Assembly (NCBI RefSeq): GCF_039830135.1
Contig: NZ_CP156081.1
Span: 730,001-794,000 of the forward strand
Reading direction: 5' to 3'
Origin: Defluviimonas sp. SAOS-178_SWC
Lineage (GTDB): Bacteria > Pseudomonadota > Alphaproteobacteria > Rhodobacterales > Rhodobacteraceae
Length of the DNA stretch: 64,000 nt
The translations under genes and the position numbers were made by a program. Under the pieces are notes generated by a model. That model saw nothing but the letters and a program-made list of their open reading frames with translations. It had not been told where the DNA came from and searched no databases. Of this stretch, positions 9,150-19,967 are shown in pieces; the stretch's first letter is position 1; each line of letters begins with the position of its first letter.

Positions 9150-10334
9150 ATGCGGGCGGGACTGGCATTTCTGGTGGCGGGCTATGTGCTCAGCCAGTTC
9201 TACCGTGCCTTCCTCGCGGTCCTGTCGCCGGTCCTGGGGGCCGAGATCGGCGCAACCGCCGGCGACCTCGCGCTCTCGTCCGGGATCTGGTTCCTGGTGT
9301 TCGCGGTGATGCAGATGCCCGTCGGCGGCGCCCTCGACCGGATCGGGCCGCGGCTGACGGCCTCCGTCCTTCTTGCCTTCGGTGGCGGCGGCGGAGCGCT
9401 GGTCTTTGCGCTCGCCCAGGGACCGGGCGCGGTGCACCTGGCGATGGCGCTGATCGGGGTCGGCTGCTCGCCGGTTCTGATGGCGTCCTACTACATCTTT
9501 GCGCGGGTCTATTCGCCCGCGGTCTTCGGCACCCTCGCCGGCGCGATCATCGGCGCGGGTTCGCTTGGCAATATCGCCGGCGCGGCGCCGCTCGCGTGGC
9601 TGGTGGAGCTTGCAGGCTGGCGCGAAACGCTCTTCGGCCTCGCCGCCGTGACAATCCTCGTGGCCCTTGCGCTCTGGATCTTCGTCCGCGATCCGGAGCG
9701 GGTGGTGGCGCCGGAAACCGGACACGGGTCGATCCTCGACCTTCTGAGGATTCCGGGCCTCTGGGCGATCCTGCTCCTGATGGCCGTGGCCTATGCCCCG
9801 GCCGCCGCGATCCGCGGGCTCTGGGCCGGGCCATACCTTGCCTCGGTCTTCGGATCGGACGCGCTTGCCATCGGGCGGGCGACGCTCGTGATGGCGCTTG
9901 CGATGGTCGCGGGAAACTTCGCCTACGGGCCCCTCGACCGGATCTTCCGAACGCGGAAATGGGTTGTCTTCTGGGGCAATGCGCTTGGCGCGGCCTGCCT
10001 CGGCGTCCTGGCATTCTGGCCGGCTTCGGGCTTCTGGAGCGCGACGGCGCTTCTCGCCGCACTCGGGCTCTTCGGCTCGTCCTATCCGGCGATCATGGCG
10101 CATGGACGGTCGTTCTTCCCGCCCCATCTCGTCGGACGCGGGGTGACCTTTCTCAACATGTTCGGCATCGGCGGCGCCGGCATCCTGCAATTCGCGTCGG
10201 GGCGGTTCCACCGCGCGATGGCCGAAGGGGCCACGACGGCAGAGGCGCCGTTTGCCGCGCTCTTCGCCTTCTTTCTCGTCCCGCTTCTGATCGGCCTCGT
10301 CCTCTATCTCTTCAGCCGCGATAGCGTGAGTTGA
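9150..10334 (+). CDS. MFS transporter
   Basis: Inner-membrane major facilitator of 394 residues with about 12 hydrophobic helices. The loop between helices 2 and 3 reads [14 protein letters not shown], matching the MFS signature (G-x-x-x-D-R-x-G-x-R). The first helix begins at the N-terminus ([26 protein letters not shown]), typical of sugar-phosphate or organic-anion type carriers. ATG 9150 was chosen because the open frame before it overlaps ade in antisense and has low hydrophobicity. It is divergent from adenine deaminase across 130 bp. Substrate unknown. Confidence 0.85.
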
Positions 10335-10397
10335 AACACGCGTGGACTTTGCCTTCGGATGCGCGGCATCCTGCCCCCGGCGGCGAAAGGAGACCCG

Positions 10398-11108
10398 ATG
10401 GCCGAAACTTCCGTAGCGATCCTGCCCGCCCGAGGCGGATCAAAGCGCATCCCGCGCAAGAACATCCGGGATTTCGCCGGGCGACCGGCCATGGCCTGGG
10501 CAATCGCCGCGGCGCGTGCCAGCGGCTGTTTCGCGCGGATCGTGGTAACGACCGACGACGCGGAGATTGCAGGTGCCGCGCGGGCCTTGGGCGCCGAAGT
10601 GCCTTTCCTGCGGGATCCGGCGCTTGCCGATGATCATACGGGCACGACCGAAGTGATCCGCGACGCGGCCGAACGGTTGCGGCTTGCCCCCGACACGGCG
10701 GTTTGCTGCCTTTACCCCACGGCCTTTTTCGTCACCGCCGAAGATCTAAGGGCGGGTCGCGAAAAGCTCGATGCGGGGGCGAAATGGGTGCTGTCGGTCG
10801 GCGAATACCGCACGCCCATCGAGCGTGCCTACCGGCGCGACGGCGACCGTCTCGTCGCGCGCGATCCGGCCAAGATGCCGATGCGGTCCCAGGACCTTGA
10901 GCCCGCCTTCTTCGATGCCGGGCAGTTCTACTGGGCGCGGGCGGCGACCTGGTCCGATCCCGCCGCGCGGGTCTGGAACGGCGCGGCGGGAATTCTCTTG
11001 CCGGCCGAGCGCTGCATCGACATCGACACCGAGAACGACTGGCGCCTGGCGGAGAGGATGTTCACGCTTCTGGGACTTGGCGGCGATGCGGATCACGATC
11101 AGGGCTGA
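10398..11108 (+). CDS. pseF: Pseudaminic acid cytidylyltransferase
   Basis: CMP-pseudaminic acid synthetase of 236 residues; activates Pse with CTP in the cytoplasm, the last step before transfer. The nucleotide-binding motif LPARGGSKRIPRKN occupies 8-21, with later family motifs FFDAGQFYWA and IDIDTENDW. AAAGGAG lies just before ATG 10398; an earlier in-frame ATG at 10359 lacks such a site. The family also contains CMP-sialic and CMP-legionaminic synthetases, but the linked pseB, C, G, H and I make PseF the clear assignment. It overlaps pseG by 23 bp. Confidence 0.93.
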   Translation: MAETSVAILPARGGSKRIPRKNIRDFAGRPAMAWAIAAARASGCFARIVVTTDDAEIAGAARALGAEVPFLRDPALADDHTGTTEVIRDAAERLRLAPDTAVCCLYPTAFFVTAEDLRAGREKLDAGAKWVLSVGEYRTPIERAYRRDGDRLVARDPAKMPMRSQDLEPAFFDAGQFYWARAATWSDPAARVWNGAAGILLPAERCIDIDTENDWRLAERMFTLLGLGGDADHDQG

Positions 11109-12633
11109 CGGCAACCCGACGATCGGCGGCGGTCACGTCATGCGCTGCCTCACCATGGCCCGGGCCGCGCGGGGCCGGGGGCACGAGGTGGCATTCGTCA
11201 CGGCGGTCGGGGCCGGCTCCTTTGCCGGGCGCATCTCGGCGGAGGGGTTCACCGTCGCCGGAATCGAGCCGAGGGCGCACGACCCCTCCGCCGATCCGGA
11301 GGCGCCGGCCCATGCCGGCTGGCTCGTGACCCCGTGGGAGGAGGATGCCGCCGTCACGGCCGCCGCCGTGGCCGGTCAAGGCGCGGACTGGCTCGTCGTC
11401 GATCACTATGGCCTCGACGCGCGGTGGACCGGCAGGGTTCGCGCGGCGATGCCGGAACTGAGGGTTCTGGCGATCGATGACCTCGATGATCGGGCGCTCG
11501 GCGCGGATCTTGTTCTGGACCAGACCCGCATGGGCGGCGGGTCGCGGCGGCATTCCGGTCTGGCGAACCTCACTGGCCCGGACTATGCGCTTCTCAGGCC
11601 CGAATTCGCCGCAGCGCGGCCCGCCGCGCTCAGCCGGCGCGGCCAGCCGGTGCGGCGGGTTCTGATCGCGCCGGGGCTTGCCGACGCGGCGGGGCTCGCG
11701 CCGCTTGCGCTCGATGCGCTGAAAGGGCGGCCGGAACTGTCTGTCGATGTCGTGATGGGCGCCGAAAGCCAGAGTTGCGGCGCCGTGGCGACCCGGATCG
11801 CGGGGCGCGAGGGCGCGGCGCTGCATCTCGACGCGACCGATATGGCCGGGCTGATGACGCGGGCCGACCTTTGTATCGGCGCGGGCGGAATGACCGGTTG
11901 GGAACGCTGCTGCCTGGGGTTGCCGACGGTGGCGGTCGCCGTCGCGGACAACCAGCGCCCCGGGCTTCGCGGCCTGTCGGAGGCTGGGGCCGTTGTCGCG
12001 ATGGGACTGGAGGATGCCCGAATGCCCGGCGCGCTGACGCGCGCGATCGGCCATGCCATCGAGACCGCGCAGAACCTGTCGGTGGCCGCCGCGAGGCTGT
12101 GCGACGGTCAGGGCGCGGCGCGCGTTCTCGACGCGCTGGAGGGCCGCTTCCGTCCCGTGACCGAGGCGGATGCGCGTCTTCTCTTCGACTGGCGGAACCG
12201 GCCCGAGATCCGCGCCGTCAGCCTCAACCGCGACGAGCTGGATTGGGCGAAGCACGTGGAATGGGTGCGGGCCATGACCCGCCGGACGGACGGGGAGTGG
12301 CTGATCTATGCCGAAGGTGGCCGCGATCTTGGCCATGCGAGCGCCCGCGACACCGGTGACGGCACTTGGCAGTGGAGCTTTTACATCGGCGAAGCGGATG
12401 CGCCAAAAGGGGCGGGCGGGCGCATGACGGCCGCGTTCCTTCGCAGGCTGTTCGCGCAGCCATCCGTGCGCGCGATCCGTGCCGAGGTCGTTCCTGGCAA
12501 CGCGGCGTCCGAGGCGCTTCACCGGCGGCTGGGGTTCCGTTGCGTGAGCGAACCGGATGCGGGCGTGCTTGTCTTCGTGGCAGACAGATGCGATGTGCGG
12601 GGGCGGATGGGCCTGCCAGAGGAAGGACACTAG
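11086..12633 (+). CDS. pseG: PseG-PseH fusion: UDP-sugar hydrolase plus N-acetyltransferase
   Basis: A 515-residue two-domain enzyme. Residues 1 to about 350 are PseG, which removes UDP from UDP-2,4-diacetamido-2,4,6-trideoxy-L-altrose: GGGHVMRCLTMA near the start and GAGGMTGWERCCLGLP in the second Rossmann domain are the family motifs. From about 353 (RFRPVTEADARLLFDWRN) to the end is a GNAT fold equal to PseH, which acetylates the 4-amino group one step earlier. The two are separate proteins in Campylobacter and Helicobacter. No internal stop separates the domains. ATG 11086 overlaps pseF and pseI begins 2 bp after the stop. Confidence 0.9.
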   Translation: MRITIRADGNPTIGGGHVMRCLTMARAARGRGHEVAFVTAVGAGSFAGRISAEGFTVAGIEPRAHDPSADPEAPAHAGWLVTPWEEDAAVTAAAVAGQGADWLVVDHYGLDARWTGRVRAAMPELRVLAIDDLDDRALGADLVLDQTRMGGGSRRHSGLANLTGPDYALLRPEFAAARPAALSRRGQPVRRVLIAPGLADAAGLAPLALDALKGRPELSVDVVMGAESQSCGAVATRIAGREGAALHLDATDMAGLMTRADLCIGAGGMTGWERCCLGLPTVAVAVADNQRPGLRGLSEAGAVVAMGLEDARMPGALTRAIGHAIETAQNLSVAAARLCDGQGAARVLDALEGRFRPVTEADARLLFDWRNRPEIRAVSLNRDELDWAKHVEWVRAMTRRTDGEWLIYAEGGRDLGHASARDTGDGTWQWSFYIGEADAPKGAGGRMTAAFLRRLFAQPSVRAIRAEVVPGNAASEALHRRLGFRCVSEPDAGVLVFVADRCDVRGRMGLPEEGH

Positions 12634-12635
12634 CC

Positions 12636-13691
12636 ATGACGGAGACGTTCGCCATCGCGGGCCGCCCGATCGGGTCGGAGCATTCCCCCTATGTGATCGC
12701 GGAACTGTCAGGCAACCACAACGGCGATCTGAACCGGGCACTGGCGCTTGTCGACGCGGCCGCGGCGACCGGGGCGGATGCGGTGAAGCTGCAGACCTAC
12801 ACCGCCGACACGATCACGCTGGATGTCGACCGGCCCGAATTCCGGATCTTGGGCGGGCTTTGGGACGGGCGGAGCCTGCACGAGCTTTATCAGGAAGCCT
12901 CCACGCCGTGGGACTGGCACGGGGCGCTTTTCGCCCGGGCGCGGGATCACGGCCTGCACTGCTTTTCCTCGCCCTTCGATCCGACGGCCGTCGATTTCCT
13001 CGCCAAGCTCGACGCACCCGCCTACAAGATCGCGTCCTTCGAACTTGTCGACACGCCGCTGATCCGCAAGGCGGCGGCCGAGTGCAAGCCTCTCATCATG
13101 TCCACCGGCATCGCGGATTATGGCGAGATCGAAGAGGCGTGCCGGGCGGCACGTGAAGGCGGCGCCGATGGATTCGCGCTACTGCACTGCATCTCGGCCT
13201 ATCCGGCGAAGCCCGAGGAGATGCGCCTCGGCACCATCGGGACGCTGCGCGCGGCCTTCGGTGTTCCTGTCGGCCTGTCGGATCATACGCTGGGCTCCGC
13301 CGTGGCCGTGGCGGCGATCGCCAGGGGCGCGTGCATCATCGAAAAGCACCTGACGCTCGCCCGCGCCGATGGCGGGCCGGACGCGGAGTTCTCGTTGGAG
13401 CCGGACGAGTTCCGCCACCTGGTGGAGGATTGCCGGATGGCGCATGCGGCGCTTGGGCCTGCGCGCCATGATCGGGCCGGCGTCGGCGGCGCGAACGCAC
13501 AGTTCCGCCGCTCGCTTTACGTGACTGCCGACGTCGCGGCGGGCGAGGTCCTGACCGAGGCCAATGTGCGGTCCGTCCGGCCCGGCCTTGGCCTGGCGCC
13601 GAAGCATTTGCCGGCGATCCTCGGCCGCCGCGCCGCGCGCGCGCTCACGCGCGGCGAGCCGCTCAACTGGGGCATGATCGCTCAGGACTGA
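12636..13691 (+). CDS. pseI: Pseudaminic acid synthase
   Basis: NeuB-family enzyme of 351 residues that condenses phosphoenolpyruvate with 2,4-diacetamido-trideoxy-altrose to give pseudaminic acid. The TIM-barrel N-terminal domain shows AELSGNHNGDLNRAL near 22-36, CFSSPFDPTAVDFL and GLSDHT; the C-terminal SAF (antifreeze-like) domain starts near 290 with RRSLYVTADVAAGEVLTEANVR. ATG 12636 is 2 bp after the pseG-pseH stop. It converges on the downstream glycosyltransferase gene, overlapping its 3' end by 10 bp. Confidence 0.93.
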   Translation: MTETFAIAGRPIGSEHSPYVIAELSGNHNGDLNRALALVDAAAATGADAVKLQTYTADTITLDVDRPEFRILGGLWDGRSLHELYQEASTPWDWHGALFARARDHGLHCFSSPFDPTAVDFLAKLDAPAYKIASFELVDTPLIRKAAAECKPLIMSTGIADYGEIEEACRAAREGGADGFALLHCISAYPAKPEEMRLGTIGTLRAAFGVPVGLSDHTLGSAVAVAAIARGACIIEKHLTLARADGGPDAEFSLEPDEFRHLVEDCRMAHAALGPARHDRAGVGGANAQFRRSLYVTADVAAGEVLTEANVRSVRPGLGLAPKHLPAILGRRAARALTRGEPLNWGMIAQD

Positions 13692-14779
13692 GCGGCGCGG
13701 GCCAACATGCGGTGTTCGATGGCCTCGGCCGCGCGGTCGAGATTGCCGTCAAGATCGCCGAAACGGGCGCGGACTTCGTCATAGACGGGGTCGGGCCGAC
13801 CGATCCCGTCGATAAAGGCTTCGAGGCCCGGAAGGTCGCCGATCTGCGGCAGTTCCGCGAAAAGCGGCAGGTTCTCGGCGAAGACGGCCGCCGGTTTGCC
13901 GGAATAGATGCAATCGAGGACCGTGGTCGAGGTCGGCGAGACCATCGCATGGGCAAGATCGATCGCGTCGTGGATCGTCGCCTTTGCGAGCGGCCCGGAA
14001 TAGTAGTGCGAGAACATCACGTTCGGGTGCTTGCGCGCCAGATCCCGGTCATGGCTCCGGTGGTTCTTGCGAACCTTGCCGCGATGTGACCGGATGATGA
14101 TGCCAAGATCGGGATGCCGCGTCAGGGCCTTGTCCATCAGGTCGTAGAAATGGCCGATATGGTCCTTGGTGTAGCGCCCTTCGCCCCAGCGGAACGACTG
14201 GCAGACGAGAAGCCGTTTCGGGTAGCGCGCGACCCAGTCGCTGACCTCCTGACCCCAGCGCGCGCCCGGCAGGATGTTCTTCTTCGAAAACCCGACGACC
14301 TCCACCCGCCCGGCCGTTTCGGGGGTGAAAAGCGCTCGGTTGTCGCCCAACGGCTCCCAGAACAAAAGCTGCTGGGAATAGTACTCCATCGGCTCGTCGA
14401 TCTTGCGGGCATTCACGCCCACCTGGTAGGCGCCATGCTGGAGGAAGACCGACTGCTGGCCGATCCTGCGCATGTAGGTCCCGCGCTGCTTGCGCGTGGT
14501 CGTGTCCCAGAGCGGGTCGGCGATGGTCAGGACGGCGTCGGCGTCGCGAATGTCGCGCTGGAACAGCAGCTTCATCCGCAGTTTCGAGGCGGGCTCTGGC
14601 GCGAACCCTTCCTTTTCGAAGACGCCGGAAAGCCGGCGCTCCTTGCGCAAGAGCTTGGAATAGACGAGTGCCCTGACCTCGACCTTTCCGCGCAGGTGCA
14701 GCCGTGCGAGCACGGGGTACGTGCTTTCGAAATCCGGCATCCCGTTCAGATAGGCGAGAAGACGGGGCTTAGCGGCCAT
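13682..14779 (-). CDS. Putative glycosyltransferase (CDP-glycerol transferase-like, GT-B)
   Basis: A 365-residue cytoplasmic or membrane-associated protein without a signal peptide. The C-terminal half reads HAMVSPTSTTVLDCIYSGKPAAVFAEN, a nucleotide-sugar-binding pattern shared with CDP-glycerol glycerophosphotransferase and surface-polysaccharide GT-B enzymes. The middle contains RLLVCQSFRWGEG and IIIRSHRGK, consistent with a second Rossmann domain. It sits inside the pseudaminic acid locus, overlapping pseC by 11 bp, so it probably assembles the glycan that receives Pse or transfers Pse itself. Acceptor and donor are unknown. Confidence 0.6.
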   Translation of the reverse strand: MAAKPRLLAYLNGMPDFESTYPVLARLHLRGKVEVRALVYSKLLRKERRLSGVFEKEGFAPEPASKLRMKLLFQRDIRDADAVLTIADPLWDTTTRKQRGTYMRRIGQQSVFLQHGAYQVGVNARKIDEPMEYYSQQLLFWEPLGDNRALFTPETAGRVEVVGFSKKNILPGARWGQEVSDWVARYPKRLLVCQSFRWGEGRYTKDHIGHFYDLMDKALTRHPDLGIIIRSHRGKVRKNHRSHDRDLARKHPNVMFSHYYSGPLAKATIHDAIDLAHAMVSPTSTTVLDCIYSGKPAAVFAENLPLFAELPQIGDLPGLEAFIDGIGRPDPVYDEVRARFGDLDGNLDRAAEAIEHRMLARAAQS

Positions 14780-15914
14780 CGAGCGCCTCGGAGAGCGCGG
14801 CTACGACCCTGTCCTGATCGGCCTCGGTCAGCCCCGGATAGAGCGGCAGGCTGATCGCGCGCCGATAGTAGCCTTCCGCCACCGGGAAATCGCCCCACCT
14901 GAATCCGCGCTTCCGCCAGAAGGGCTGGGTGTGGACCGGGATGTAATGGACGTTGACGCCGATGCCCGCCGCCCGCAGGTCCGCGAAGACGCGGGCGCGG
15001 TCTTCGACCTGGATGGGGTAGAGGTGCAGCGCGGAATGGCTGTCTGGGCTTTGCCGCGGGCGGGTCACGGCAAGGTTGCCGAGAAGCCGGTCGTAGCGCT
15101 GGGCGACTTCATGCCGCCTGGCCACGAATTCCTGAAGCCGCGTCATCTGCGACACGCCAAGCGCGGCCTGAAGCTCCGTCATGCGGTAGTTGTAGCCGAG
15201 CGCGACCTGTTCGTAATACCAGCCGCCTTCCGACACGCCTTCCATCAGCGAAGGTTCACGCGTCACCCCGTGGGAGCGGTGAAGCTCCATCCGCTGGGCG
15301 AGCACCGGATCGTTGGTCGTGGCGCAACCTCCCTCCGCCGTGGTCACGATCTTGACCGGGTGGAAGGAGAAGACGCAGATGTCCGAATGCGCGCAGTCGC
15401 CGACGGGCCGGTCGCGGTAGCTAGCGCCGATGGCGTGCGAGGCGTCCTCGATCACGCGGAACCTGTAGCGGTGGGCCAAGGCGCCGATCGCCGCCATGTC
15501 GGCGCTCTGGCCGGCGAAATGGACGGGAATGACAATCTTCGGCAATCTGCCGGACGCTTCCGCCTGTTCCAGCTTTGCGGCGAGCGCGTCGGGGCACATG
15601 ACATAGGTTTCGGGGTCGATATCGACGAAATCGACCTCGGCGCCGCAGTAAAGGCCGACATTGGCGGAAGCGACGAAGGTGTTCGGCACCGTCCAGAGCC
15701 GGTCGCCCGGCCCGAGATCAAGCGCCATGCAGGCAATATGCAGCGCCGACGTCGCGGAGTTGACGGCGACCGCATGGGCCGCGCCCGTCGCATCGCGCAG
15801 CGACGCCTCGAAGCGCGGCACGGCGGGGCCTTGCGTGAGGAAGTCCGACTTGAGGACATCGGTGACGGCAGCGATGTCGTCGTCCGAGATATCCTGCCGG
15901 CCGTAGGGGATCAT
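14769..15914 (-). CDS. pseC: UDP-4-amino-4,6-dideoxy-N-acetyl-beta-L-altrosamine transaminase
   Basis: PLP-dependent DegT/DnrJ/EryC1 aminotransferase of 381 residues; second step of pseudaminic acid synthesis. The PLP lysine is Lys188 in VFSFHPVKIVTTAEGG, and ASHAIGASYRDRPVGD just before it is typical of PseC. MIPYGRQDISDDD is the classic PseC N-terminus, so ATG 15914 was chosen rather than the longer frame to 15980. The start codon shares one base with the pseB stop (TGATG), so the two are translationally coupled. Confidence 0.93.
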   Translation of the reverse strand: MIPYGRQDISDDDIAAVTDVLKSDFLTQGPAVPRFEASLRDATGAAHAVAVNSATSALHIACMALDLGPGDRLWTVPNTFVASANVGLYCGAEVDFVDIDPETYVMCPDALAAKLEQAEASGRLPKIVIPVHFAGQSADMAAIGALAHRYRFRVIEDASHAIGASYRDRPVGDCAHSDICVFSFHPVKIVTTAEGGCATTNDPVLAQRMELHRSHGVTREPSLMEGVSEGGWYYEQVALGYNYRMTELQAALGVSQMTRLQEFVARRHEVAQRYDRLLGNLAVTRPRQSPDSHSALHLYPIQVEDRARVFADLRAAGIGVNVHYIPVHTQPFWRKRGFRWGDFPVAEGYYRRAISLPLYPGLTEADQDRVVAALSEALDGR

Positions 15915-16912
15915 CAGAACGTCCCGATCTTGTCGGCGTTCCTGGTCATCCACGCCTGCAATTCCTCGACGGTCATCCATTCGGAATTGTTGTCGGAGGC
16001 GTACTGGAAGTTCTCCGGCACCTTGCGGCCGTCCTTGATCCGCACCGGATCGCGCGACCAGTTGTGGATCGCCGGGATGATCTTGAAATGGTCGTCGTAT
16101 TCGAAGGTGTGGTCAGCATCCTCCGGCCCGATCATCTGCTCGTGCATCTTCTCGCCGGGCCGGATGCCGACGATGTCATGCTCGGCTTCGGGGGCGACCG
16201 CGCGGGCGATATCGGGAAGCTTCATCGAGGGGATCTTGCGCACGTAGATTTCGCCCCCGACCATGTCCTCCATCGCGTGCCAGACCAGTTCCACGCCCTG
16301 TTCGAGGGTGATCATGAAGCGCGTCATGCGCGGGTCGGTGATCGGCAGCTTGCCGGTGGCCTTCAGCGACTGGAAAAGCGGGATGACCGACCCGCGCGAG
16401 CCCATAACGTTGCCATACCGCACCACGGAAAAGCGGCACTTGTCGGCCCCCGAATAGGAGTTGCCGGCGACGAAGAGCTTGTCGGACGCAAGCTTGGACG
16501 CGCCGTAGAGATTGATCGGGCTCGATGCCTTGTCGGTCGATAGCGCAACGCAGCGCTTAACGCCCTTGTCGATGCAGGCGTCGATGACGTTCATCGCGCC
16601 ATTGACGTTGGTCTTGATACATTCGAAGGGGTTATATTCTGCGGTCGGGACGATCTTGGTCGCGGCGGCGTGAACGACGTAATCGACCCCGTCCATCGCC
16701 CTGTACAGCCGCTCGCGGTCGCGCACGTCGCCGATGAAGAAACGCACTTCAGGCAGGTGACCGTAGAGCTTCGCCATCTCCCACTGTTTCATCTCGTCGC
16801 GGGAATAGATGATGATCCGTGAGGGCTTATAGCGCGCCAACGTCATCGGCACGAATTGCGACCCGAAAGAGCCCGTGCCGCCGGTCAGAAGAATTTTGGA
16901 ACCCGTCAGCAT
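15914..16912 (-). CDS. pseB: UDP-N-acetylglucosamine 4,6-dehydratase (inverting)
   Basis: Short-chain dehydrogenase-type enzyme of 332 residues that starts pseudaminic acid synthesis from UDP-GlcNAc. NADP-binding GGTGSFGSQF is at 11-20; the catalytic set STDKA (125-129) and Tyr136/Lys140 in NLYGASK match PseB/FlaA1. It is the first gene of the minus-strand half of the pse locus. The 111 bp upstream, between pseB and the methyltransferase-like gene, shows no terminator I can identify, so both could be co-transcribed. Confidence 0.94.
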   Translation of the reverse strand: MLTGSKILLTGGTGSFGSQFVPMTLARYKPSRIIIYSRDEMKQWEMAKLYGHLPEVRFFIGDVRDRERLYRAMDGVDYVVHAAATKIVPTAEYNPFECIKTNVNGAMNVIDACIDKGVKRCVALSTDKASSPINLYGASKLASDKLFVAGNSYSGADKCRFSVVRYGNVMGSRGSVIPLFQSLKATGKLPITDPRMTRFMITLEQGVELVWHAMEDMVGGEIYVRKIPSMKLPDIARAVAPEAEHDIVGIRPGEKMHEQMIGPEDADHTFEYDDHFKIIPAIHNWSRDPVRIKDGRKVPENFQYASDNNSEWMTVEELQAWMTRNADKIGTF

Positions 16913-17023: not shown

Positions 17024-18067
17024 TCAGGCGCGGCGCGACAGCACGATGACTTCGGAGCGGTAGGAGCCGTCCTCCGACATCTCGCCATGAACGAAGGCGT
17101 CGCGGGCCGTCACGTCGAAATCGTCGAAGCGGGAGACGATGAAATCGGTCGTCACTTTCTCCATCACGCCGACCTCGCCTTCCTTGCTGGCGGTCTTCTT
17201 GCCGTGGGCGCTGTTGCGGATCAGGGCATGACGGCCGGTGAGCGGCTGAACCTTCGCGACGTAGTTGGCGACGACGTCGGGTTCCATTTCCTGGAAGGAC
17301 ATGAAATTGGCAAACAAGTCGAACTGTCCGGAGAGGCGTGGCAGTTGCCAGGGGCAGAGGACGACGGCACGGTAGCGGCCCTTGAGGGCGTCGAGGTCGA
17401 TCCGGTCCAGCTTCCGGCTCTCGGGATAGGCAAGAACCCGGTCTGCGCCGAACACCTTGGACAGATACCAGGTCGACACCGCGGCGACAGGGGGAATGTC
17501 GACATTGACGTAGATCGCGCCTTCTTCGGCCTTGAGAAGGATCTCGCCCAGAGTGCCATAGCCGCCGCCGATCTCAAGGCAGCTTTGCGGCCGGAAGTCA
17601 GGTGCCGCGCGCTTCAGAAGGTTCAGCGCCCGCAGGTAATTCAGCATCGAGCGGCTGTAGCTTTTCCCGTCGAATGCGAAGCGTTCGCCCCCGCCGATGT
17701 CGCTTTCGCTTGCGCGGTCAACGTCGAACGCTCCTTCGACGGATGTTGCCCGGAAGAGCCGGTAATCGGCTCGCGCCCGGTCCGAATGCGTCAGCCTGGT
17801 GCGCCAGCGGCTCGCCTTGCGGGCGGGGAGCCTGGAGAGAACGGGGTCGAGTACATTCGACCACCGCGCATAGGTGTTGGACGAATACACAGGAACGTAG
17901 AAGAACCGCGCCGAGGGATGCGTGCGGAAGGTCTCAATCCCCAGCTTTTCGATGTCGGAAATGATGCCCGCCAGGCCGCTGTTCCAGAAATTCGTCGGAC
18001 GGTAGAGGCCGGGCGCCCTTTCCATGTCCGTCAGCATCGGTTGGAGAATATCCTCGATCCGGTCCAA
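17024..18067 (-). CDS. Putative sugar O-methyltransferase (NanM-type)
   Basis: A 347-residue protein with the SAM-binding motif CLEIGGGYGTLGEILLK near residues 168-184 followed by IYVNVDIPP (motif II). The overall pattern, including FANFMSFQEMEP and IRNSAHGKK, fits the putative sugar O-methyltransferase family seen in nonulosonate and polysaccharide loci. It lies between pseB and the GT29-like gene, so it may methylate the Pse-containing glycan. The rare N-terminal ~130 residues before the SAM domain are of unknown function. Substrate is inferred only from position. Confidence 0.65.
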   Translation of the reverse strand: MDRIEDILQPMLTDMERAPGLYRPTNFWNSGLAGIISDIEKLGIETFRTHPSARFFYVPVYSSNTYARWSNVLDPVLSRLPARKASRWRTRLTHSDRARADYRLFRATSVEGAFDVDRASESDIGGGERFAFDGKSYSRSMLNYLRALNLLKRAAPDFRPQSCLEIGGGYGTLGEILLKAEEGAIYVNVDIPPVAAVSTWYLSKVFGADRVLAYPESRKLDRIDLDALKGRYRAVVLCPWQLPRLSGQFDLFANFMSFQEMEPDVVANYVAKVQPLTGRHALIRNSAHGKKTASKEGEVGVMEKVTTDFIVSRFDDFDVTARDAFVHGEMSEDGSYRSEVIVLSRRA

Positions 18068-18201
18068 AGCCGCCCCCTCTGCTGATCCTCAGGTTCGGGT
18101 GTATTCAGGCCGGACCCCTCCCTGTCAACCGCCGTGCGGGGGGTGCAACGTGCTTTGCGGGGTGTTAACGAGGGCGGGGCCATGCGAGAGGGCGGCGGAT
18201 C

Positions 18202-18837
18202 GTGTCGGACGGACAGCTTTCGAAACTCGGGTTCCTGCTCGCGCGGGCCCTCCGCCGGGAGGATCGTCTTGCAGGACTGTCCGTGGGGCGGGGGGGCCTC
18301 CTCGACGAGCTGCGGGGCAAGCGGGTCGCGCTTGTCGGCAACGCCCGTTCGCTAGCCGCCCGCGCCGAAGGGGTCGAGATCGACGCGGCCGACCTCGTCA
18401 TCCGCATCAACCGCGCCCCGATGCCGGATGCCGTGTCCCACGGGAGCCGTACCGACTGGCTGGCGCTCGCGACCTCGATCGGTGCGGACGACCTTGCGCG
18501 CCTTCATCCCTCACGGCTCCTGTGGATGAGCCACAAGCGCAAACGTCTGCCGTGGCCGGTGGCGGCGACGTCCGGTTTCTATCTGCACCCGCTCGCCGAT
18601 TGGGCCCGCTTGCGCGACCGGTTGGGCGCACCGCCGACGACCGGCCTGATGATGATCGACCTCCTCGCATCCAGCGACGCGGCGACGATCCGGCTTCACG
18701 GGTTCGATTTTTTCGCCTCGCTTTCGCTCACCGGCTCGCGCCGCGCCGATCAGGTGCCGCATGACTTCGCGGCCGAACGCCGTTTCGTCGCGGACCTGAT
18801 GTCAAGCGACCCGCGCGTGACCCAGGCAGGGACGTGA
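18202..18837 (+). CDS. GT29-like (sialyltransferase-family) glycosyltransferase
   Basis: A 211-residue protein with the layout of family GT29: L-motif-like VALVGNA (42-48) and VIRINRAP (66-73), S-motif-like TTGLMMIDLL (146-155) followed by LHGFDFF (165-171), and a VS-type H-x4-E pair (His187, Glu192). GT29 enzymes use CMP-activated nonulosonates as donors. No signal peptide or transmembrane anchor is visible. The start is GTG 18202; there is no ATG in frame nearby. Standing next to a full CMP-pseudaminic acid pathway, it is the best candidate in the window for a Pse transferase. Specificity is an inference. Confidence 0.65.
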   Translation: MSDGQLSKLGFLLARALRREDRLAGLSVGRGGLLDELRGKRVALVGNARSLAARAEGVEIDAADLVIRINRAPMPDAVSHGSRTDWLALATSIGADDLARLHPSRLLWMSHKRKRLPWPVAATSGFYLHPLADWARLRDRLGAPPTTGLMMIDLLASSDAATIRLHGFDFFASLSLTGSRRADQVPHDFAAERRFVADLMSSDPRVTQAGT

Positions 18838-18944
18838 CCGGCAAGTTTCAGCTTCTAAATTTCTGCGGCGCAGCATTCGTGGGGCTTTTCCTGTGCCGCG
18901 CAATCGGATAAGGGGCCCCGTCCTTATCTGAAGGAGACCCCGGA

Positions 18945-19967
18945 ATGGGCTACAGAGTCGTTGTTGCCGGCGCCACGGGGAATGTGGGCCGCGAAATGCT
19001 GAATATCCTCGCCGAGCGGGAATTCCCCGTCGACGAGATCGCCGCGCTTGCCAGCCGCAAGTCGCTTGGCACCGAAGTTTCGTTCGGCGACAAGACTCTC
19101 AAGACCAAGGACCTCGACACCTTCGACTTCACCGGCTGGGACATCGCGCTATTCGCCGTGGGGTCCGAGGCGACGAAGAGCTACGCGCCGAAGGCGGCGA
19201 AGGCGGGCTGCGTCGTGATCGACAACTCCTCGCTCTACCGCTACGACCCCGAGATCCCGCTGGTCGTGCCGGAGGTGAATGCCGAGGCGGTCGACGGCTA
19301 TGCCAAGAAGAACATCATCGCGAACCCCAACTGCTCGACCGCGCAGATGGTCGTGGCGCTGAAGCCGCTGCATGACCGCGCGAAGATCAAGCGTGTCGTC
19401 GTCTCGACCTACCAGTCCGTCTCGGGCGCGGGCAAGGAAGGCATCGACGAGCTTTGGGACCAGACCAAGGGCATGTACGTGCCGGGCCAGGAAGTGGCGC
19501 CGTCGAAGTTCACCAAGCAGATCGCCTTCAACGTCATTCCCCATATCGACGTCTTCATGGAAGACGGCCAGACCAAGGAAGAGTGGAAGATGGTCGCCGA
19601 GACCAAGAAGATCCTCGACAAGTCGATCAAGGTCACGGCGACCTGCGTCCGCGTCCCGGTCTTCGTCGGCCATTCGGAGGCCGTGAACATCGAGTTCGAG
19701 GAGTTCCTCGACGAAGACGAGGCCCGCGACATCCTGCGCGAGGCGCCCGGCGTCATGGTCGTCGACAAGCGTGAGAACGGCGGCTATGTCACGCCGGTCG
19801 AATGCGTCGGCGACTACGCCACCTTCGTCAGCCGCATCCGTCAGGACGGCACGGTGGAAAACGGCCTGAACCTCTGGTGCGTGTCCGACAACCTGCGCAA
19901 GGGCGCCGCCCTGAATGCCGTGCAGATCGCCGAAGTCCTCGGCAATCGCTGCCTGAAGAAGGGGTGA
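18945..19967 (+). CDS. asd: Aspartate-semialdehyde dehydrogenase
   Basis: NADP-dependent enzyme of 340 residues making aspartate semialdehyde for lysine, diaminopimelate, threonine and methionine synthesis. N-terminal GATGNVGREML (9-19) binds NADP, the active-site cysteine is in NPNCSTAQMV, and the catalytic His region and ESA-type C-terminus are present. A clean AAGGAGA ribosome site precedes ATG 18945. The 107-bp leader holds a short inverted repeat (GATAAGG and CCTTATC around 18907-18931). Followed by a terminator-like hairpin at 19978-20000; monocistronic in this view. Confidence 0.96.
   Translation: MGYRVVVAGATGNVGREMLNILAEREFPVDEIAALASRKSLGTEVSFGDKTLKTKDLDTFDFTGWDIALFAVGSEATKSYAPKAAKAGCVVIDNSSLYRYDPEIPLVVPEVNAEAVDGYAKKNIIANPNCSTAQMVVALKPLHDRAKIKRVVVSTYQSVSGAGKEGIDELWDQTKGMYVPGQEVAPSKFTKQIAFNVIPHIDVFMEDGQTKEEWKMVAETKKILDKSIKVTATCVRVPVFVGHSEAVNIEFEEFLDEDEARDILREAPGVMVVDKRENGGYVTPVECVGDYATFVSRIRQDGTVENGLNLWCVSDNLRKGAALNAVQIAEVLGNRCLKKG

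Follow-up and report, generated by a model that had tools for sequence, protein, structure and literature searches.

Enzymes of glycosyltransferase family 29 (GT29) use cytidine monophosphate (CMP)-ulosonates as donors. Here we describe a small GT29 protein that is encoded at 18202..18837 (plus strand) of a 64,000-nucleotide stretch of the Defluviimonas sp. SAOS-178_SWC genome (Rhodobacteraceae; the whole stretch is referred to as the window), next to a gene cassette for CMP-pseudaminic acid (CMP-Pse) biosynthesis. The animal GT29 enzymes ST3Gal-I (2wnb), ST6GalNAc2 (6apl) and ST8SiaIII (5bo9) use a sialic acid donor, show about 20% identity to the window protein and are much longer. From bacteria, the available text of a 2018 study (PMC5811610) describes 23 GT29 sequences, 19 of them alphaproteobacterial, that have neither a transmembrane part nor disulphide cysteines and for which sialylation was inferred; they belong to the same family and phylum as the window protein, and their genome context is not reported in that text. 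From plants, the accessible part of a 2024 report (PMC11288761) presents Arabidopsis RCKT1 as a GT29 enzyme that transfers 3-deoxy-D-manno-octulosonic acid (Kdo) from CMP-Kdo to rhamnogalacturonan II, based on cell walls of mutant callus and not on an in vitro assay. RCKT1 is a Golgi enzyme, unlike the window protein, and is likened to it by family and not by direct sequence comparison, but it provides a precedent for a GT29 serving Kdo transfer. We found no assay of an alphaproteobacterial GT29 in the bacterial GT29 literature, with a partial, open-access coverage that is no proof of absence.

Our analysis leads us to favour, by a modest degree, the reading that the window GT29 is a CMP-ulosonate transferase acting on a surface glycan, most likely with CMP-Kdo as donor, and that the pse cassette replaced its former partner gene, a GT4-type glycosyltransferase. 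Since most close relatives are without a detectable pathway for sialic-acid-type sugars, the protein is probably an older surface-sugar enzyme at a site where the pse cassette landed.

Motifs and predicted fold of the GT29 protein

The open reading frame (ORF) starts with GTG and encodes 211 amino acids. It carries the L (large), S (small) and VS (very small) sialylmotifs at the residues where the earlier note, which was made from the sequence only, had placed them. On the plus strand these are the L-motif parts VALVGNA (18325..18345, residues 42-48, with G46, N47 and A48 invariant) and VIRINRAP (18397..18420, residues 66-73, with R68 and N70 invariant), the S-motif TTGLMMIDLL (18637..18666, residues 146-155, with T147 and G148 invariant), and the VS-motif H187-x4-E192 (18760..18777, both named residues invariant), which falls within PHDFAAE. 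Invariance refers to an alignment of 29 sequences including that of the window, across which N47, N70, G148, H187 and E192 are all unchanged.

The GT29-like character that had been proposed from these motifs was borne out by profile and by model. The protein matches PF00777 with 34.5 bits (cut-off 23) over residues 38-90, which is mainly the L motif, and its predicted structure has the GT29 fold. A protein search returned 1323 homologues at E<=0.001. PF00777 was found on all of the best 120 of these that were listed, and those among the 120 that are named by NCBI are mostly called "glycosyltransferase family 29 protein" and come from Rhodobacteraceae. The only meaningful match in a sequence search of solved structures was ST3Gal-I (E=0.024). 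The top row of that search, a tandem match to an antifreeze protein (E 7e-5), was discounted, as no single stretch of it passes alone. The resemblance goes beyond chance, and on the basis of profile and modelled fold we place the protein within GT29 as a true bacterial representative of this family.

Sialylmotif III is of the His-Tyr-Tyr type. Inspection of the window protein from the S motif to H187 did not reveal this motif, nor any other His/Tyr-rich motif, which sets it apart from the animal enzymes; the stretch matching the motif III position reads ASLSLTGSRRADQ. Because motif III is retrieved in the bacterial set of PMC5811610, as given in its available text, the clade of the window protein appears divergent at this position.

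Gene order and ulosonate pathways among relatives

Gene order was compared across the best 80 loci from a set of 121 confirmed related ones; two of the 80 have less than 1 kb downstream. Counts out of 80 refer to these loci, as a wider tally of 102 loci counts some genomes twice. The gene asd follows GT29 on the same strand within 2.5 kb in 72/80 loci. A GT4-type gene, identified by PF00534 in two copies of it, lies within 2.3 kb upstream in 66/80 loci and is directly adjacent in 61/80. The two genes overlap in locus L003, at the GT4 stop codon and the GT29 start. A major facilitator superfamily (MFS) gene was found upstream in 58/80. Pse genes were present in the available flanks of 3/80 loci, and 11/80 were without both pse and GT4 within 2.3 kb. 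The usual arrangement in this Rhodobacteraceae clade is a GT4-GT29 pair, with GT29 as second gene, followed by asd; locus L057 of Paracoccus denitrificans is one example.

In the window and in loci L004, L006 and L007, the pse cassette is located between the MFS gene and GT29. A GT4 of the paired kind was not seen at any of these four loci, nor did the genome of the window (G000) contain a close copy of it elsewhere (best match 32% identity). The cassette in the window sits where relatives have the GT4 gene coupled to GT29. Within the genus of the window, 17 genomes carry GT29; the locus holds GT4 in 12 of them, the pse cassette in four and neither in one, with loci that reach about 1.5 kb upstream and a fourth cassette (L147 of G311) that rests on contig positions. 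In some relatives that are further removed, the GT4 position is occupied by a gene for a polysaccharide pyruvyltransferase (PF04230). Since GT4, pse cassette and PF04230 alternate there, the upstream place swaps glycan genes while GT29 stays. The ratio of nonsynonymous to synonymous substitution rates (dN/dS) of GT29 is 0.15-0.20 in pse context, which indicates that GT29 is still under selection after loss of its old GT4 partner; among pairs without pse, the ratio was 0.28 and 0.33.

The earlier note had raised the possibility of a GT29-fold Pse transferase. We consider this role improbable for the window protein; in its most plausible form, GT29 would have been recruited for Pse transfer after arrival of the cassette. 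The full pse set adjoins GT29 at the four loci named above, the gene is under purifying selection there despite the lost partner, and CMP-ulosonates are established GT29 donors, all of which is in line with such a role. Several observations argue against it. GT29 is encoded on the opposite strand to pseB and pseC, the pse genes nearest to it, and to the methyltransferase gene in between. Two genomes, G012 and G168, carry the cassette (pseF, pseG(H), pseI, a GT-B protein, pseC, pseB and a NanM-type gene) with gene order and orientations unchanged, and neither genome gave a GT29 match, so that a GT29 as fixed part of the cassette was rejected. In the phylogenetic tree, the window GT29 clusters with those of L001 and L002 (96/96 support), two loci that contain GT4 but lack pse, and a Pse-specific GT29 lineage was rejected likewise. 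This tree has several flagged long branches and bootstrap values that are not settled, leaves out L047, which was dropped from the alignment, and compares the pse label with 15 distant rows only. The cassette moreover contains another transferase candidate, described below. Linkage to pse genes at 3/80 loci and the distribution of the key synthase do not support a Pse transferase.

This distribution was examined in 199 genomes of the family, with a PF03102 match taken as NeuB-family synthase. GT29 occurred in 37/199 and NeuB-family synthases in 54/199. The GT29 genomes fall into 23 with a best match of at least 259 bits, which define the clade of the window protein, and 14 below 120 bits (the next genome has 119.5). 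Genes of the NeuB family are depleted with the window's clade, being present in 2/23 (G000 and G021) compared to 52/176 of the other genomes (p=0.044), and a PF03102 match is missing from the remaining 21/23. Within the same genus (22 genomes), 10/17 GT29-positive genomes are without a NeuB-family gene, eight of these ten being at least 90% complete and the other two 77% and 87%, and all five GT29-negative genomes (G009, G319, G323, G326 and G327) have one, in one case as a fragment. Orthologues of the window GT29 are found, in other words, in genomes that have no nonulosonate pathway at the level of its key synthase. Neither pse nor neu genes show linkage to, or co-occurrence with, the window's clade, and by the pathway genes sought the sialic acid donor of the animal enzymes is not available to it. 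This differs from the sialylation inferred for bacterial GT29 proteins in the available text of PMC5811610.

The picture is different for CMP-Kdo. A single gene for a CMP-sugar synthetase (PF02348) was found in 11/23 clade genomes, and two such genes in the other 12. Of the 11, eight were scanned, and 8/8 pass NF003950 (Kdo cytidylyltransferase), with scores slightly below the equivalog cut-off of TIGR00466, which is narrower. A Kdo cytidylyltransferase is also encoded in G000. CMP-Kdo supply is necessary for the proposed role but common to most Gram-negatives. Because the L and S motifs, which bind the nucleotide, are intact, as is the VS histidine, transfer of an ulosonic acid is the most likely activity; an inverting enzyme of this kind would take the sugar from CMP and attach it to a glycan of the cell surface, perhaps the core of lipopolysaccharide (LPS). 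If the window GT29 uses a CMP-ulosonate like other GT29s, its donor is most likely CMP-Kdo by exclusion, since this is the sole CMP-ulosonate that many clade genomes appear able to make. In the lineage of the window, the GT4 partner was replaced by the pse cassette, which came with a transferase candidate of its own.

A further explanation is that the protein is no CMP-ulosonate transferase: it could have kept the GT29 fold but diverged to use a different donor, or could assist GT4 without being catalytic itself. We regard this as rather unlikely. The five residues that are invariant across the 29 sequences and common to the neu-linked clade described below speak against it, as does the persistence of the gene under selection where GT4 is gone.

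A second GT29 clade linked to neu genes

Eight of the 14 other GT29 genomes form one branch (support 100/94), and NeuB is present in 8/8 (p=2e-5). Here the linkage to neu genes and the co-occurrence expected for a sialyltransferase of N-acetylneuraminic acid (Neu5Ac) are seen, which separates this clade from that of the window. Of the remaining six genomes, G155 has NeuB elsewhere and G006, G007, G087, G137 and G192 have none. In 6/8 loci of the neu-linked clade (L083 and L085-L089), two waaA genes for Kdo transferases, neuC, a gene whose product has no Pfam match, GT29 and neuB are found together; as exceptions, neuB of G106 is on another contig and L090 ends at the contig end. Gene names in these loci rest on L088 and L089, whose NeuB proteins score 339 and 346 bits (equivalog cut-off 400), far better than to PseI. 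The GT29 proteins of this clade (L083-L090) are about 29-36% identical to the window GT29 and have G46, N47, R68, N70, G148, G167-D169, H187 and E192 in common with it. At columns 175-176 they carry T-Y, where the window protein has S-L.

It is plausible that the neu-linked GT29 is an LPS-core sialyltransferase of the animal-type family. The available text of PMC9631793 names R. capsulatus as one of the bacteria whose LPS contains Neu5Ac. We tentatively propose that GT29 proteins of Rhodobacteraceae might be sorted by donor, with the asd-linked clade transferring Kdo from CMP-Kdo and the waaA-waaA-neuC-neuB clade transferring Neu5Ac to the LPS core. If true, the difference in donor that separates plant from animal GT29s would also be present inside one bacterial family, and the label "sialyltransferase" would name the wrong sugar for one clade of many alphaproteobacterial GT29 proteins. 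Both clades would then offer small models, free of a transmembrane part, for how GT29 enzymes choose between Kdo and sialic acid.

The protein without Pfam match (L088:8602-9621) is encoded directly upstream of the neu-linked GT29, is present in all eight clade loci and resembles a glycosyltransferase by eye only. In two of the genus members mentioned above, G009 and G323, a single stretch holds waaA, waaA, neuC and neuB but no GT29. Very divergent GT29-like stretches were found in L095 and L096 (G137 and G192) within open frames of more than 700 codons, possibly fused to another glycan enzyme.

The pse cassette and an orphan GT-B protein

The cassette beside the window GT29 had been read in the earlier note as pseBCFGHI. 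PseB, PseC, PseF, PseG and PseI indeed score above their NCBIfam equivalog cut-offs, and PseH shares one ORF with PseG, to which it is fused, with a score under the cut-off. On the plus strand the cassette comprises pseF (10359..11108; TIGR03584, 243.2 bits, cut-off 205.7), the fused pseG-pseH ORF of 515 amino acids (11086..12633; TIGR03590, 226.7 bits, cut-off 153.55, and TIGR03585, 59.5 bits, cut-off 93.1) and pseI (12636..13691; TIGR03586, 479.5 bits, cut-off 340.25). On the minus strand follow an orphan protein gene (13682..14779), pseC (14769..15980; TIGR03588, 544.5 bits, cut-off 423.5), pseB (15914..16912; TIGR03589, 529.3 bits, cut-off 407.75) and a gene for a putative sugar O-methyltransferase of NanM type (17024..18067; TIGR04371, 252.1 bits, cut-off 44).

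The orphan protein at 13682..14779 has 365 amino acids and no Pfam family, and its gene overlaps pseC. Its AlphaFold2 model (predicted local distance difference test score 93.7) has a GT-B fold and GT-B relatives. It was found in 8/199 genomes, and all eight are positive for a NeuB-family gene. With a predicted glycosyltransferase fold and co-occurrence with pse, it is a better Pse-transferase candidate than GT29, and might represent a new family of Pse transferases. One Pse transferase, KpsS1, reportedly belongs to GT118. Known Pse transferases also include GtfS of T. forsythia (PMC6120980) and FlmG of Caulobacter (PMC7591256), both given as GT-B type in the available texts. They are likened to the modelled orphan protein by this description only, and the window GT29 is not GT-B. 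The search for the Pse transferase of the cassette shifts to this orphan GT-B family without assigned function. In G168, one stop was counted inside the GT-B protein.

A step in guanine-cytosine content was looked for at the cassette and not found. The cassette was not found on plasmids at high identity either: all of the 75 matching plasmid records are 60-80% identical, and none spans over 80% of its length. No sigma-70-like promoter was detected in 17900-19100, and the same region contains two terminator-like sites, compared to a mean of 0.7 in shuffled sequence. The cassette is flanked upstream by the MFS transporter gene (9150..10334, plus strand; start estimated from MRAGLAF), which is 88% identical to the L003 copy. 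The next gene downstream of GT29, in the same direction, is asd for aspartate-semialdehyde dehydrogenase (18945..19967, plus strand; NCBIfam). The NanM-type gene is also part of the cassettes of L004, L130 and L131.
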